Shown here: in pieces, positions 12,069 through 23,152 of the stretch | Layout: the number at the start of each line of letters is the position of its first letter | Numbering within the stretch: the stretch's first letter is position 1 | Assembly: GCF_963676665.1 (NCBI RefSeq) | Contig: NZ_OY781387.1 | Location: 1 to 37,500, forward strand | DNA length: 37,500 nucleotides | From: an uncultured Tolumonas sp. | GTDB lineage: Bacteria; Pseudomonadota; Gammaproteobacteria; Enterobacterales; Aeromonadaceae | Reading direction: 5' to 3' | Made by a program: the position numbers and the translations under genes | The notes under the pieces: model-generated | The model's database searches: none | What the model saw: only the letters and a program-made list of their open reading frames with translations | Told to the model about the DNA's origin: nothing

Positions 12069-13142
12069 ATGCTGCACAAGCTGCAGATCCAACATTTTAG
12101 AAATCTCAGCCAGTCGGAAATTTTTCCGGCTGGTGGGATGAATTTGCTGTTAGGCCAGAATGGCAGTGGTAAATCCAGTGTACTGGAAGCCATCCATTAT
12201 CTGAGTCTGGGCCGCTCATTCCGTACTCATCTGACCAACCGCGTGATCATGCAGGGGGAGAAGGCGTTTACGTTATTTGCGCAGCTGGAACAAGACGAAC
12301 AGCAAATCAGTTTGGGTTTACAGAAAGATCGCCACGGCGACACCCAGCTCAAGATTGGCGGTAAAACGGCGGATAAACTGTCACAGCTGGCGAGTTTATT
12401 ACCATTACAGCTGATCCACCCTGAAGGTTACAACCTGCTGGCGGGGGGGCCACAACAACGTCGTGCGTTTGTTGATTGGGGGGTGTTTCACGTGGAGCAA
12501 GCCTTTTTCCCGTTATGGGGAAAAGTGCGACGTTTGCTAAAACAGCGGAATGCCTTATTACGGCAGTCTGCGAATTATGCACCACTGGCTTACTGGGATC
12601 AGCAATTGGCTGAAAGCAGTGAGGCATTGAGTGTGTTCCGGCAACAATACTGTCTGGCTTTGCTGCCACTACTGCAGCAGATCTGTCAGGAGTTGTTACC
12701 CGAGTACACTTTCCAAGCCACATTTTATGCTGGCTGGCAGCAGGAGTCAGCGTTAAGCCAACTTCTGCAGGAAGGCTTTGAACGTGACCGACAGTTGGGT
12801 CACTCGGCCATTGGTCCGCATCGTGCTGATTTACGACTGCGGGCTGAGGGTGTTCCGGTGCAGGATTTGCTATCTCGCGGCCAGCTCAAGTTGCTGGTTT
12901 GTGCATTGCGGTTAGCGCAGGGGTTATATCTGCGACAGCACAGTGCAAAGACCTGCTTGTTTCTGATAGATGATTTTGCCTCAGAGTTGGATGCGCAGAA
13001 ACGCTATGTTCTGGCCAAACGGTTACAGCAATGTGAGTCACAGGTGTTTATCACCGCCATTGACCAGCAACCGTTGCAGGAAATGATGCAAGAATTTGAT
13101 TGCCGTTTGTTTCACGTGAAACAGGGCAACATAACCGAATAG
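12069..13142 (+). CDS. recF: DNA replication/repair protein RecF
   Basis: RecF is an SMC-like ATPase that helps load RecA at gapped DNA with RecO and RecR. 357 aa with Walker [12 protein letters not shown] (about 28-38), the ABC-type signature [10 protein letters not shown] (about 264-273), and Walker [13 protein letters not shown]. The ATG lies 5 bp after the dnaN stop. A perfect parS palindrome is embedded in the coding sequence near its end, encoding part of FHVKQ. A weaker parS-like sequence (TGTTTCACGTGGAGCA) occurs at 12484-12499. Confidence 0.97.
13108..13123. promoter_or_regulatory. parS: parS site (ParB-binding centromere) inside recF
   Basis: TGTTTCACGTGAAACA is a perfect 16-bp palindrome that matches the widely conserved chromosomal parS consensus exactly. 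It lies within the last codons of recF, about 3.6 kb right of dnaA, as expected for origin-proximal parS sites. No parA or parB gene is in the window. Confidence 0.92.
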
Positions 13143-13162
13143 TCGACACAGTGGGAATAAAC

Positions 13163-15580
13163 ATGAGCGAGAATACTTACGACTCCTCGAGTATTAAGGT
13201 ACTGAAAGGGCTGGATGCGGTACGTAAACGTCCGGGTATGTATATCGGGGATACCGATGACGGATCAGGTCTGCACCACATGGTATTCGAAGTGATGGAT
13301 AACTCCATCGACGAAACACTGGCAGGTCACTGCACGGATATCGTTGCCCGTATTCATGAAGATGGCTCGGTTTCGGTACGCGATAATGGCCGTGGTATTC
13401 CGGTTGACATGCATAAAGAAGAAGGCCGTTCGGCGGCTGAAGTTATCATGACCATTCTGCATGCCGGTGGTAAGTTTGATGATAACTCGTACAAAGTGTC
13501 TGGTGGTCTGCATGGTGTGGGTGTGTCAGTGGTTAACGCCCTGTCTGACAAATTACTGTTGACCATTCAACGTAATGGCAAAATTCACCAACAGACCTAT
13601 TTTTTGGGCGAGCCTGATGCACCATTGGCGGTTGTTGGTGAATGCGAAGGTACGGGGACAGAAATTCGTTTCTGGCCAAGCCCATCTATTTTTTCGGACG
13701 TGACGTTCCGTTATGAAATTCTGGCGCGCCGTTTCCGTGAGCTGTCATTCCTGAACTCGGGCGTTTCTATCCGTCTGATTGATGAGCGTGATGGCCGTGA
13801 AGATCATTTCCATTACGAAGGCGGTATTCGCGCGTTCGTGGAATATCTGAATCAGAACAAAACCCCAATCCACCAGAAAGCCTTCTATTTCACGTTAGAG
13901 CGTGAAGATGGCATTGCAGTGGAAGTGGCGATGCAGTGGAACGATGCCTATCAGGAAAACGTCTATTGCTTTACCAACAACATTCCGCAGCGGGATGGTG
14001 GTACGCATTTGGCGGGTTTCCGTACCGCATTAACGCGTACGCTGAACACCTACATGGATAAAGAGGGTTACAGCAAAAAAGCGAAAACCTCGGCCTCCGG
14101 TGATGATGCGCGTGAAGGTTTGACCGCGGTTATTTCGGTGAAGGTGCCGGATCCAAAATTCTCTTCGCAGACCAAAGACAAACTGGTCTCTTCTGAAGTG
14201 AAAACGGCAGTTGAGCAAGCGATGGGTGAGAAACTCGACGAATACCTGTTGGAAAATCCGGGTGAAGCGAAAATCATCGTCGGTAAAATTATTGATGCCG
14301 CACGTGCGCGAGAAGCTGCGCGTAAAGCTCGTGAAATGACCCGCCGTAAAGGTGCGCTGGATATCGCTGGCTTACCAGGTAAGTTGGCCGATTGCCAAGA
14401 GCGTGACCCTGCGTTGTCTGAACTTTACCTCGTGGAAGGTGACTCTGCGGGCGGCTCTGCGAAGCAGGGGCGTAACCGCAAATATCAGGCAATCTTGCCA
14501 CTAAAAGGTAAGATCCTGAACGTGGAAAAAGCCCGTTTCGACAAGATGATCTCCTCGCAGGAAGTGGGCACACTAATCACGGCATTAGGTTGTGGTATTG
14601 GCCGTGATGAATATAATCCGGACAAAATGCGTTACCACAACGTCATCATCATGACCGACGCCGACGTCGACGGTGCGCACATCCGTACGCTGCTGTTGAC
14701 CTTTTTCTATCGTCAGATGCCGGAAATCATCGAGCGTGGTTATGTCTACATTGCCCAACCGCCATTGTATAAAGTGAAAAAAGGCAAACAAGAACAGTAC
14801 ATCAAAGACGAAGAGTCATTGCTGGAATACCAGACCACGTTGGCCCTTGACGGTGCAGAACTGTATGTGAATGATTCTGCTCCGGCGATTTCTGGCGCAC
14901 AGCTGGAAAAAATGGTGCTGGAATACCGCACCGCGCAGCATCTGATCACCCGTCTGGCTCGTCGTTTACCAGAAGCTGTGTTACAACAGCTGTTAATCCT
15001 GCCTGTGCTGACCACAGAGGCATTGAAGGATGAAACCCAAGCCAAGGCATGGGTAGCCCAGTTGCAACACAATCTGGATGAGCACGGTAACAATGGTTCG
15101 CAATATACCTTGTCTGTGCATCGTCACGCGGAACATGGTGTTTACTTGCCACAAATTCTGCTGCGTCAGCACGGGGTGGAAAAACACTACCAGCTGGGTT
15201 TTGAGTTCCTGAATTCACCAGAGTATCAGCAGATTGTCGGGATTGGTCAGCAGATCACTAACCTGATTGAACCGACTGGTTTCTTGAAGCGTGGTGAGAA
15301 AATTCGCCCGGTGACCAGCTTTGAAGAAGCACTGCAGATCTTATTGGATGAAGGTAAACGCGGTTTGTATATCCAACGTTATAAAGGGTTGGGTGAGATG
15401 AACCCAGAGCAGTTATGGGAAACCACCATGGACCCTATGACGCGTCGTATGCTGCGTGTCACCATTGAAGATGGCATGGCGGCTGATCAGCTGTTTGCTA
15501 CCTTGATGGGGGATAACGTGGAACCACGTCGTGCGTTCATTGAAAGTAATGCACTGAAGGTTGCCAATCTCGATATCTAA
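13163..15580 (+). CDS. gyrB: DNA gyrase subunit B
   Basis: GyrB is the ATPase half of DNA gyrase, which introduces negative supercoils. 805 aa (E. coli 804). Visible motifs are DNGRGIPVD and [15 protein letters not shown] in the GHKL ATPase domain, the Toprim motifs [15 protein letters not shown] and [15 protein letters not shown], the long gammaproteobacterial insertion within the Toprim region, and [16 protein letters not shown] near the end. The reading frame opens earlier, inside recF, but the ATG at 13163 gives the family start [17 protein letters not shown] and follows GTGGGA. A terminator follows the gene. Confidence 0.98.
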
Positions 15581-21868: not shown

Positions 21869-23110
21869 TTATAGTTCGTTGATGACCTGTTGCAGTATAG
21901 CAATGCCTTGTTTCACTTTTTCTTCTGGTTGCGCGTAATTCAGACGAATGCATTCATACTGATGCTGCCATTCTTTATCCGGCAAACCCGGGAAAAAATA
22001 ATGACCGGGAACGATAATTAAACCGCGTTGTTTTAGTTTTTCATAGAGTTGCTGGCAAGAAATGGGTAACCCGTCAAACCACAGCCATAAAAACAGTGCA
22101 CCTTCCGGTTTATGGATCCGCAATTTTGGTGCTGGAATGGCCTGTTGTAACCACTCAACCGCTTGTTGAGCTTTGCGCTGGTAATAGGGTGCAATAATAT
22201 CTGCGCTGTAACGCAGAATATCGCCAGACTCTAACCAGTGCTGCATCAAGGCTGGGCCAACACCGCTGGGGGCTAAATTGATAATGCCGGAGATGTTACC
22301 CATTGCCTGGATGATTTTTGGATCGGCGATCACAATACCGCAGCGTAAGCCGGGCAAGCCGAGTTTAGACAAACTCATACACAGGATCGTGTTGTCATTC
22401 CAGAACGGAGTCACTTCACTGAAGATGATATGCGGAAAAGGGGTGCCATAGGCATTGTCGATCAGCAGTGGAATGCCTTTCGCTTGAGCAATTTCATCTA
22501 ATCGTGCTATCTCATCATCGGTCAACACATTGCCGGTTGGGTTGGTTGGGCGCGACACACAGATCAAACCAATGTCATCACCCACTTCCAGCGCATCAAA
22601 ATCGACGCGATATTTAAACAGACCGTTGTCCAGATAATCAATGTGGGGTTTGCAGGCGACAAATTGATCTTCGCTCAGCCCGCCATCGGCATAACCGATA
22701 TATTCCGGTGCCAGCGGGAACAGCACTTTTTTCTGCTGGCCCGTAGCGTATTCACCCGCCAGCAAGTTGAACAAATAAAAAAAGGCACTCTGACTGCCGT
22801 TGGTCAGTGCGATATGGTCAGGTGTGATAGCCCAGCCATATTCCTTGCAAAATAATTCAGCGAGAGCGTGGCGGAAACCATCATGGCCTTGCGGACCATC
22901 ATAGTTCAGCATGGCTTTAAGCAGAGTGCCATTTTCCAGTTGATGGGCGGTCGCTTGTCGAAACAGTTCCACCATCTCAGGAATAGCGGCGGGGTTACCA
23001 CCACCCAGCATGATAGCTTCCGGATTTTTCAGACCCTGATTTAGATCGTCCATTAGTTGACTGATACCTGCCAACCGAGTGAATTTCTCGCCGAATTGTG
23101 AAAATTGCAT
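21869..23110 (-). CDS. avtA: Valine-pyruvate aminotransferase
   Basis: About 413 aa of the fold-type I PLP aminotransferase family, very close in layout to E. coli AvtA (FSxFGxKFTR start, IMLGGGNPAAIPEM, LTNGSQSAFFYLFNL, SRPTNPTGNV, SLSKLGLPGLRCG with the PLP lysine, and IHKPEGALFLWLWF). It transfers an amino group between alanine/pyruvate and valine/2-ketoisovalerate. The start MQFSQFG (ending 23110) is chosen over a codon two residues upstream by family comparison. A perfect parS lies 27 bp upstream of the start. Confidence 0.95.
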   Translation of the reverse strand: MQFSQFGEKFTRLAGISQLMDDLNQGLKNPEAIMLGGGNPAAIPEMVELFRQATAHQLENGTLLKAMLNYDGPQGHDGFRHALAELFCKEYGWAITPDHIALTNGSQSAFFYLFNLLAGEYATGQQKKVLFPLAPEYIGYADGGLSEDQFVACKPHIDYLDNGLFKYRVDFDALEVGDDIGLICVSRPTNPTGNVLTDDEIARLDEIAQAKGIPLLIDNAYGTPFPHIIFSEVTPFWNDNTILCMSLSKLGLPGLRCGIVIADPKIIQAMGNISGIINLAPSGVGPALMQHWLESGDILRYSADIIAPYYQRKAQQAVEWLQQAIPAPKLRIHKPEGALFLWLWFDGLPISCQQLYEKLKQRGLIIVPGHYFFPGLPDKEWQHQYECIRLNYAQPEEKVKQGIAILQQVINEL

Positions 23111-23136
23111 ATCCATATTCTCAATACTGAACCCAC

Positions 23137-23152
23137 TGTTTCACGTGAAACA
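23137..23152. promoter_or_regulatory. parS: parS site (ParB-binding centromere) upstream of avtA
   Basis: TGTTTCACGTGAAACA, identical to the site at 13108, lies between avtA and the glyS terminator. ParB loading here could influence avtA transcription. It is about 13.6 kb right of dnaA. Confidence 0.92.

Follow-up and report, generated by a model that had tools for sequence, protein, structure and literature searches.

Chromosomal parS sites beside dnaA in an uncultured Tolumonas and their probable imprint on RecF

Chromosome segregation by ParABS depends on parS, the centromere site to which ParB binds. Here, we describe a 37,500-nucleotide stretch of DNA from an uncultured Tolumonas sp. (the whole of which is called the window), in which the exact 16-bp palindrome TGTTTCACGTGAAACA, matching the parS consensus, occurs twice near dnaA, once inside recF and once upstream of avtA. 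A third, degenerate copy lies in the middle of recF. The two palindromes are very probably real chromosomal parS centromere sites beside the replication origin, and the DNA of the recF sites seems to dictate some of the amino acids of RecF. The genes and sites at issue are as follows.

12069..13142, plus strand: recF (TIGR00611, E 3.1e-104), carrying two of the three sites
12484..12499, no strand: site 1, a degenerate parS in mid-recF (VFHVEQ), two mismatches from the perfect palindrome and one from TGTTYCACGTGRAACA
13108..13123, no strand: site 2, an exact palindromic parS, in frame as recF codons 347-352 of 357 (L-F-H-V-K-Q; LFHVKQ)
23137..23152, no strand: an exact palindromic parS, intergenic, between the glyS terminator and avtA, 20-26 bp from the avtA start
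21869..23116, minus strand: avtA (valine--pyruvate transaminase), with the open reading frame (ORF) start at 23116 and the true start probably the ATG at 23110

A sequence-only reading of this DNA had reported the two exact 16-mers and held that chance would not produce them. Both were recovered at these positions by a scan of the window, which at up to three mismatches gave three matches against a mean of 0.27 in dinucleotide shuffles, and no shuffle ever reached three; the degenerate site at 12484-12499 had been overlooked in that reading. In the whole genome (4,199,965 bases in 23 contigs), only two exact copies of TGTTTCACGTGAAACA exist, both on the window's contig (C20) and beside dnaA, with none scattered elsewhere. 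Four more places have two mismatches, 12484 among them, and a reversed control pattern gave no such place. The exact sites lie 2.2 and 12.2 kb downstream of dnaA, close to the candidate oriC. Within recF, the two in-frame parS-like sites start about +415 and about +1039 bp from the start codon; the first departs from the consensus by one synonymous change, and the second is exact. The deviation of site 1 from TGTTYCACGTGRAACA is GAG for GAA; three other genomes of the genus, G005 (T. osonensis), G008 and G009, keep site 1 intact, and T. osonensis (locus L040) has both sites exact at identical recF offsets.

The sequence-only reading had named the lack of a parB gene, or many copies of the 16-mer far from the origin, as findings that would speak against parS. 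parB was identified (TIGR00180) on two contigs (L007 on C6 and L008 on C15), each time in a gidB-parA-parB-atpI locus, where gidB, parA and atpI were named from sequence and gene order; the genome thus holds a cognate chromosomal parA and parB in a locus of the gid-par-atp type. Because the two 3.5-kb par stretches are 98.8% identical and encode identical ParB and ParA proteins, the duplication more likely reflects a strain mixture or an assembly duplicate than a second system; the estimated contamination of the genome is 3.35%. The ParB protein matches the solved ParB chains 7bnk, 6t1f, 1vz0 and 6sdk. ParB proteins conserve R173 and G201, while Noc has Q173, K179, K184 and R201 (PMC7383237). 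In an alignment to the Caulobacter chain 6t1f with hand-counted positions, the Tolumonas protein keeps the equivalents of R173 and G201 and has no lysine at 179 or 184, so its specificity residues, judged by this alignment, are of the parS type.

The association between the sites and ParB was then followed across relatives. With at most one mismatch, the site is present in 31 of 41 genomes, the window included. Among 197 genomes of the order, 143 contain at least one exact TGTTYCACGTGRAACA and 154 have a ParB match, eight of these being weak (E 2e-19 to 4e-9). When strong ParB was defined as E below 1e-50 and weak as E 2e-19 or worse, exact sites were found in 143 of the 146 strong-ParB genomes (the exceptions being G026, G098 and G145) versus none of the 51 genomes with no match or a weak one; these 51 include small reduced genomes, and 23 no-match genomes were assigned as the remainder of the 197-genome set. 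The family of the enterics (f19), in which a recF region is 87% identical to that of E. coli, is ParB-less and belongs to these 51, in agreement with the earlier statement that enterics lack such sites. That the palindromes bind some other protein, Noc for example, or arose by mere chance, is accordingly very remote: nothing was found for this idea beyond the general palindromic form, and it is opposed by the shuffles and the genome count, by the parS-type residues of the ParB protein, and by the absence of any exact site from the genomes without strong ParB. The identification of the 16-mer as parS thus holds, given the presence of parB and the coincidence of exact sites with strong ParB across the order. 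It is highly likely that the palindromes are strong parS sites of a chromosomal ParABS system and that the recF site belongs to an old in-frame recF pair whose DNA has a dual role. Judging from the sequence, ParB is expected to bind these sites in this organism.

Clamp loading of ParB, ParA-driven segregation of the origin and possible silencing of neighbouring genes are established ParABS biology. In Tolumonas, ParB bound to cytidine triphosphate would load at parS, close as a clamp and slide over the dnaA-recF-gyrB and avtA-glyS region, and ParA would move the ParB complex, making the origin region the first to segregate.

The position of site 2 within the end of the recF coding sequence, as stated in the sequence-only reading, stood; its view that the site is kept within protein-coding constraint needs correction, since the codon, column and class tests described below indicate that parS constrains RecF. 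recF was found in 188 of the 197 order genomes, and 157 of these (156 fetched plus the window) were aligned. Site 2 ([LMV]FHV[EK][HQ], near the RecF C-terminus) is exact in most ParB-bearing families. Site 1 is exact in 11 of 12 f7 genomes, 10 of 10 f8, 10 of 12 f10, both f15, one of five f21 and the single f24, and in no others of the 157. As separate observations, two f10 genomes (G166, C16:81126-81762; G096, C23:52313-52949) have three exact parS within about 0.6 kb of recF, where the additional copy follows site 1 by 225 bp, and G039 has, downstream of recF (C12:35393-38998), three parS at a nearly equal spacing of about 1.8 kb, each with one mismatch to the perfect palindrome.

The recF site might be a by-product, in the sense that RecF needs FHV[EK][HQ], the palindrome follows from the genetic code, and ParB perhaps binds it opportunistically. 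The comparison of recF codons among relatives that the sequence-only reading had proposed bears on this point. The codon usage of recF and gyrB in each genome (gyrB was missing for 13) gave the number of exact sites expected for a given peptide. The results showed that, at site 2, 89 of the 113 ParB-bearing genomes with an FHV[EK][HQ]-type peptide carry exact parS versus 6.4 expected, and that at site 1 the count is 35 of 36 versus 0.8 expected, the single exception being the window's genome. When the seven genomes whose recF had been located via parS hits were subtracted, the counts became 82 of 106 and 28 of 29. parS codons are therefore used far above codon usage at both sites, contrary to what a by-product would give.

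The protein itself was examined by counting parsimony changes in each of the 357 RecF columns in the 124 ParB-bearing and 33 ParB-less genomes, on a RecF tree from which the C-terminal tail and the columns of site 1 had been left out. Independent contrasts of ParB against site state were rejected, as the ParB-less genomes form one clade and offer only one pair; column ranks and control clades were used instead. In the ParB-less clade, H349 showed the largest excess of change of all columns (3 versus 13 changes, binomial tail 5.5e-8), followed by K351 at rank 2, Q352 at rank 4 and V350 at rank 7, and among the site-1 columns E143 ranked 8 and Q144 ranked 14; the binomial is rough and treats columns as alike, so the ranks are the safer statement. 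Columns 343-347 and 353-355 were unremarkable (tail above 0.1). In three ParB-less subclades, all of which descend from the one ParB loss, H349 ranked 1 (f9, tail 9.7e-7), 1 (f19+f11+f5, 0.0033) and 2 (f27+f26, 0.024), while K351, V350 and Q352 ranked 2, 4 and 5 in f9, 50, 354 and 7 in f19+f11+f5, and 119, 32 and 135 in f27+f26. H349 was unchanged in six ParB-bearing control clades (f12, f7, f10, f22, f1 and f8). In the 33 ParB-less genomes, site 2 is intact in none and FHV[EK] is changed in 32, with only G028 keeping FHVK, on broken DNA. The frequent changes at the H, K/E and H/Q positions in this clade, in which columns 343-347 and 353-355 were not sped up, again argue against the by-product idea.

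Across the class, 140 genomes were searched, with recF over the cut-off in 118 and a ParB match in 135. A sample of 40 was taken as every third entry of the recF list, plus G312 (chosen since no ParB was found in it) and G332, which replaced one already known. In this sample, 37 have at most one mismatch at either recF site, and the inner 14 bp are intact at one or both sites in 36 and at both in 29. FHV[EK] coincides with the intact inner 14 bp in 33 of 33 cases at site 1 and 32 of 34 at site 2, which leaves none of the 33 and two of the 34 with FHV[EK] on broken DNA, another result that a by-product would not predict. Exact twin recF sites were found in Halomonas (L075), Hahella (L090), Oceanospirillum (L056-L057), Methylococcaceae (L079) and Panacagrimonas (L095, L098 and L099) by a named-locus search seeded with a peptide that overlaps part of site 1 and is thus biased towards site 1. 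In six loci from other classes of the phylum, the recF motif was absent: five carry F-x-V at site 2 with a residue other than H in the middle, and the sixth aligned poorly. The F and V of FxV thus recur in five of the six other-class loci, as they do in 32 and 21 of the 33 ParB-less genomes, so part of this motif is under a protein constraint of its own. This favours the by-product idea, as do the order's cases of FHV[EK] on broken DNA (25 at site 2 and 11 at site 1 of the 124 ParB-bearing genomes) and a variant of site 2 in f22 and f6 in which the peptide is kept and the palindrome is broken. Taken together, we regard the by-product explanation as improbable.

Several observations weigh against a centromere that shaped RecF. 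Some ParB-bearing lineages have no recF sites: the four genomes of f3; eight Marinomonas loci that lost both sites (ParB was found in all three tested); Marinobacterium L070, which lost both and has ParB in its genome; and G264, G338 and G248, which are without both and have ParB. Conversely, G312 has an exact site 2 and no ParB match, although its assembly is only 95% complete, so that the absence of ParB is not proven. These lineages and G312 mean that ParB does not require the recF sites and that the tie between the two is not strict. The broken variant of f22 and f6, a CAC-to-CAT change at site 2, occurs in 12 of 12 and 8 of 13 genomes, respectively. Since the f22 and f6 genomes with FHVE[HQ] keep GTG plus GAA in 12 of 12 and 9 of 10 cases versus 1.8 expected in each, the variant may still serve as a weak or half site, perhaps under selection. 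In three of the 33 ParB-less genomes (G034, G117 and G144), site 2 differs from parS by a single base (CGC for CAC). The ParB-less clade also shows an excess of change at the tail columns 356 and 357 (ranks 6 and 10), and seven of the 157 recF genes (G038, G093, G110, G151, G163, G187 and G209) were located via parS hits, which biases the alignment to intact sites. Finally, ParB presence changes only once on the RecF tree; this single loss leaves the link to ParB without a replicate within the order.

On balance, we consider it likely that the centromere dictated part of an unrelated repair protein across much of the class, with FHV[EK][HQ] spelling parS, and that these positions were freed upon ParB loss in a clade that includes the enterics. 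In terms of mechanism, the DNA of the recF pair would have two jobs, as centromere and as the code for [LMV]FHV[EK][HQ], and a parS inside a gene of the dnaA-dnaN-recF-gyrB cluster would keep the centromere anchored at the origin. Selection for parS rather than for RecF function would then have fixed these residues, and the loss of ParB in the clade including the enterics would have set the RecF positions free.

The sites are of an already known type, because in P. aeruginosa parS1 and parS2 lie within recF (PMC5521831, PMC3909081). As here, P. aeruginosa has two recF parS near oriC plus intergenic ones close by with the same consensus (PMC5521831, PMC3909081, PMC4368675), its recF pair consists of one mismatched site (parS1) and one perfect site (parS2), and its parS region also holds glyS-glyQ-tag. 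Of its four origin-near parS, a single one is both necessary and sufficient (PMC4368675); should one strong site near the origin likewise suffice in Tolumonas, the wear of site 1 by a synonymous change would be tolerable. In contrast to P. aeruginosa, the second strong site of Tolumonas, known here from sequence, is upstream of avtA rather than near PA0011 or PA0013, and there are only two exact sites in all. The same 16-bp palindrome, quoted as TGTTNCACGTGAAACA in PMC7022226, and the same ParB family (chains 1vz0, 6sdk and 6t1f) are found in B. subtilis (Spo0J) and Caulobacter; the in-frame recF pair is gammaproteobacterial in the samples here, in which the other-class comparison comprises six loci and Bacillus and Caulobacter recF lie outside it. 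V. cholerae chromosome I, with parS1, also has an origin-near chromosomal parS with ParABS (PMC4091711). An uncultured Vibrio (L049), unlike Tolumonas, has CAT and a second mismatch at site 2. We guess that f22 is Vibrionaceae; if so, this family differs from Tolumonas in having the CAT variant at recF site 2 and exact sites elsewhere. For parS within recF and a shared coding constraint, the literature searched yielded P. aeruginosa ParB papers and none on RecF residues; no prior report of the class-wide in-frame pair or of the release of RecF residues with ParB loss was found there.

For the avtA-side site, the distance to the gene depends on the start codon; T. osonensis reads ATA where the window has the ATG at 23116, which makes 23110 the probable start. 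In other Tolumonas (L026, L028 and L040), in genera g2 (L014-L016) and g5 (L017 and L018) and in f12 (L037), parS or a form with one mismatch is located between glyS and avtA; in L010 (g3) and L034 (f2) it is upstream of avtA. In an alignment of eight avtA-upstream regions, the 16 bp stand out (the last base is changed in two of the eight) from flanks that differ between genera. The closeness of the palindrome to the avtA start, its occurrence ahead of this gene in g1, g2, g3 and g5, four genera of the family, as well as in L034 and L037, and the repression by P. aeruginosa ParB of promoters beside the intergenic parS3 and parS4 (PMC5521831) would all fit a site that acts mainly as an operator for ParB repression of avtA rather than as a centromere. 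The sequence-only reading had suggested that this parS may overlap the avtA promoter, but a consensus scan found none between the glyS terminator and the avtA start; the sole match on the avtA side extends across the start codon and lacks credibility, so no promoter is claimed. Moreover, the palindrome is identical to the perfect parS of recF, the distance from parS to avtA grows to about 90 bp or more in g2 and one of the two g5 loci and to about 260 bp in L037, and the matched site is not next to avtA in L009, L013, L019 and L030. A mainly operator function is therefore unlikely; an effect of ParB on avtA is plausible by analogy, and operator and centromere roles are not mutually exclusive.

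The remaining features define the origin context of the window.

9551..10942, plus strand: dnaA (TIGR00362), a marker of the origin region
9387..9435, no strand: a pair of oppositely oriented DnaA-box matches (9387-9395 and 9427-9435), a candidate oriC side just 5' of dnaA, from a simple pattern match covering the first 12 kb only
13163..15580, plus strand: gyrB, the next gene after recF, assigned by position and served as a query
23171..23192, minus strand: a terminator-like hairpin behind glyS (consensus match), separating glyS from the parS-avtA region

The gene order is yidC, an acyltransferase gene, dnaA-dnaN-recF-gyrB, transposase genes, a PotD-like gene, cyclic-di-GMP genes, avtA, glyS-glyQ, tag and zntB, with dnaN, like gyrB, named by position and use as a query. 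The guanine-cytosine skew becomes positive at about 9-11 kb, and the nearest named RecF proteins are from Tolumonas, with identity up to 98%. The recF and avtA parS are separated by 10.0 kb in the window; G002, G003 and G006 have a spacing of about 8.4 kb, and G005 and G008 one of 7.4 kb. At 15753-17079, two overlapping transposase genes, one of the IS200/IS605 type and one of the IS1595 type, separate gyrB from the PotD-like gene. The 98%-identical L038 lacks the pair and has only about 175 bp at that place, so this stretch of about 1.7 kb was probably inserted recently; the two genes fit the 1.7 kb by which the spacing is shorter in the relatives with 8.4 kb. The interval from the yidC side to dnaA (5035-9399), where rpmH presumably adjoins dnaA in many relatives, holds a large acyltransferase/acyl-ACP (acyl carrier protein) synthetase gene and a 251-amino-acid ORF with no NCBIfam match.

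Nothing about the parS sites themselves is unusual; what makes them useful is that they offer a clean case of a protein shaped by a function at the DNA level. RecF residues that look conserved in gammaproteobacterial alignments, and could be taken for functional ones, probably owe their presence to the centromere, and the RecF of enterics would then carry a relic of the loss of ParABS.

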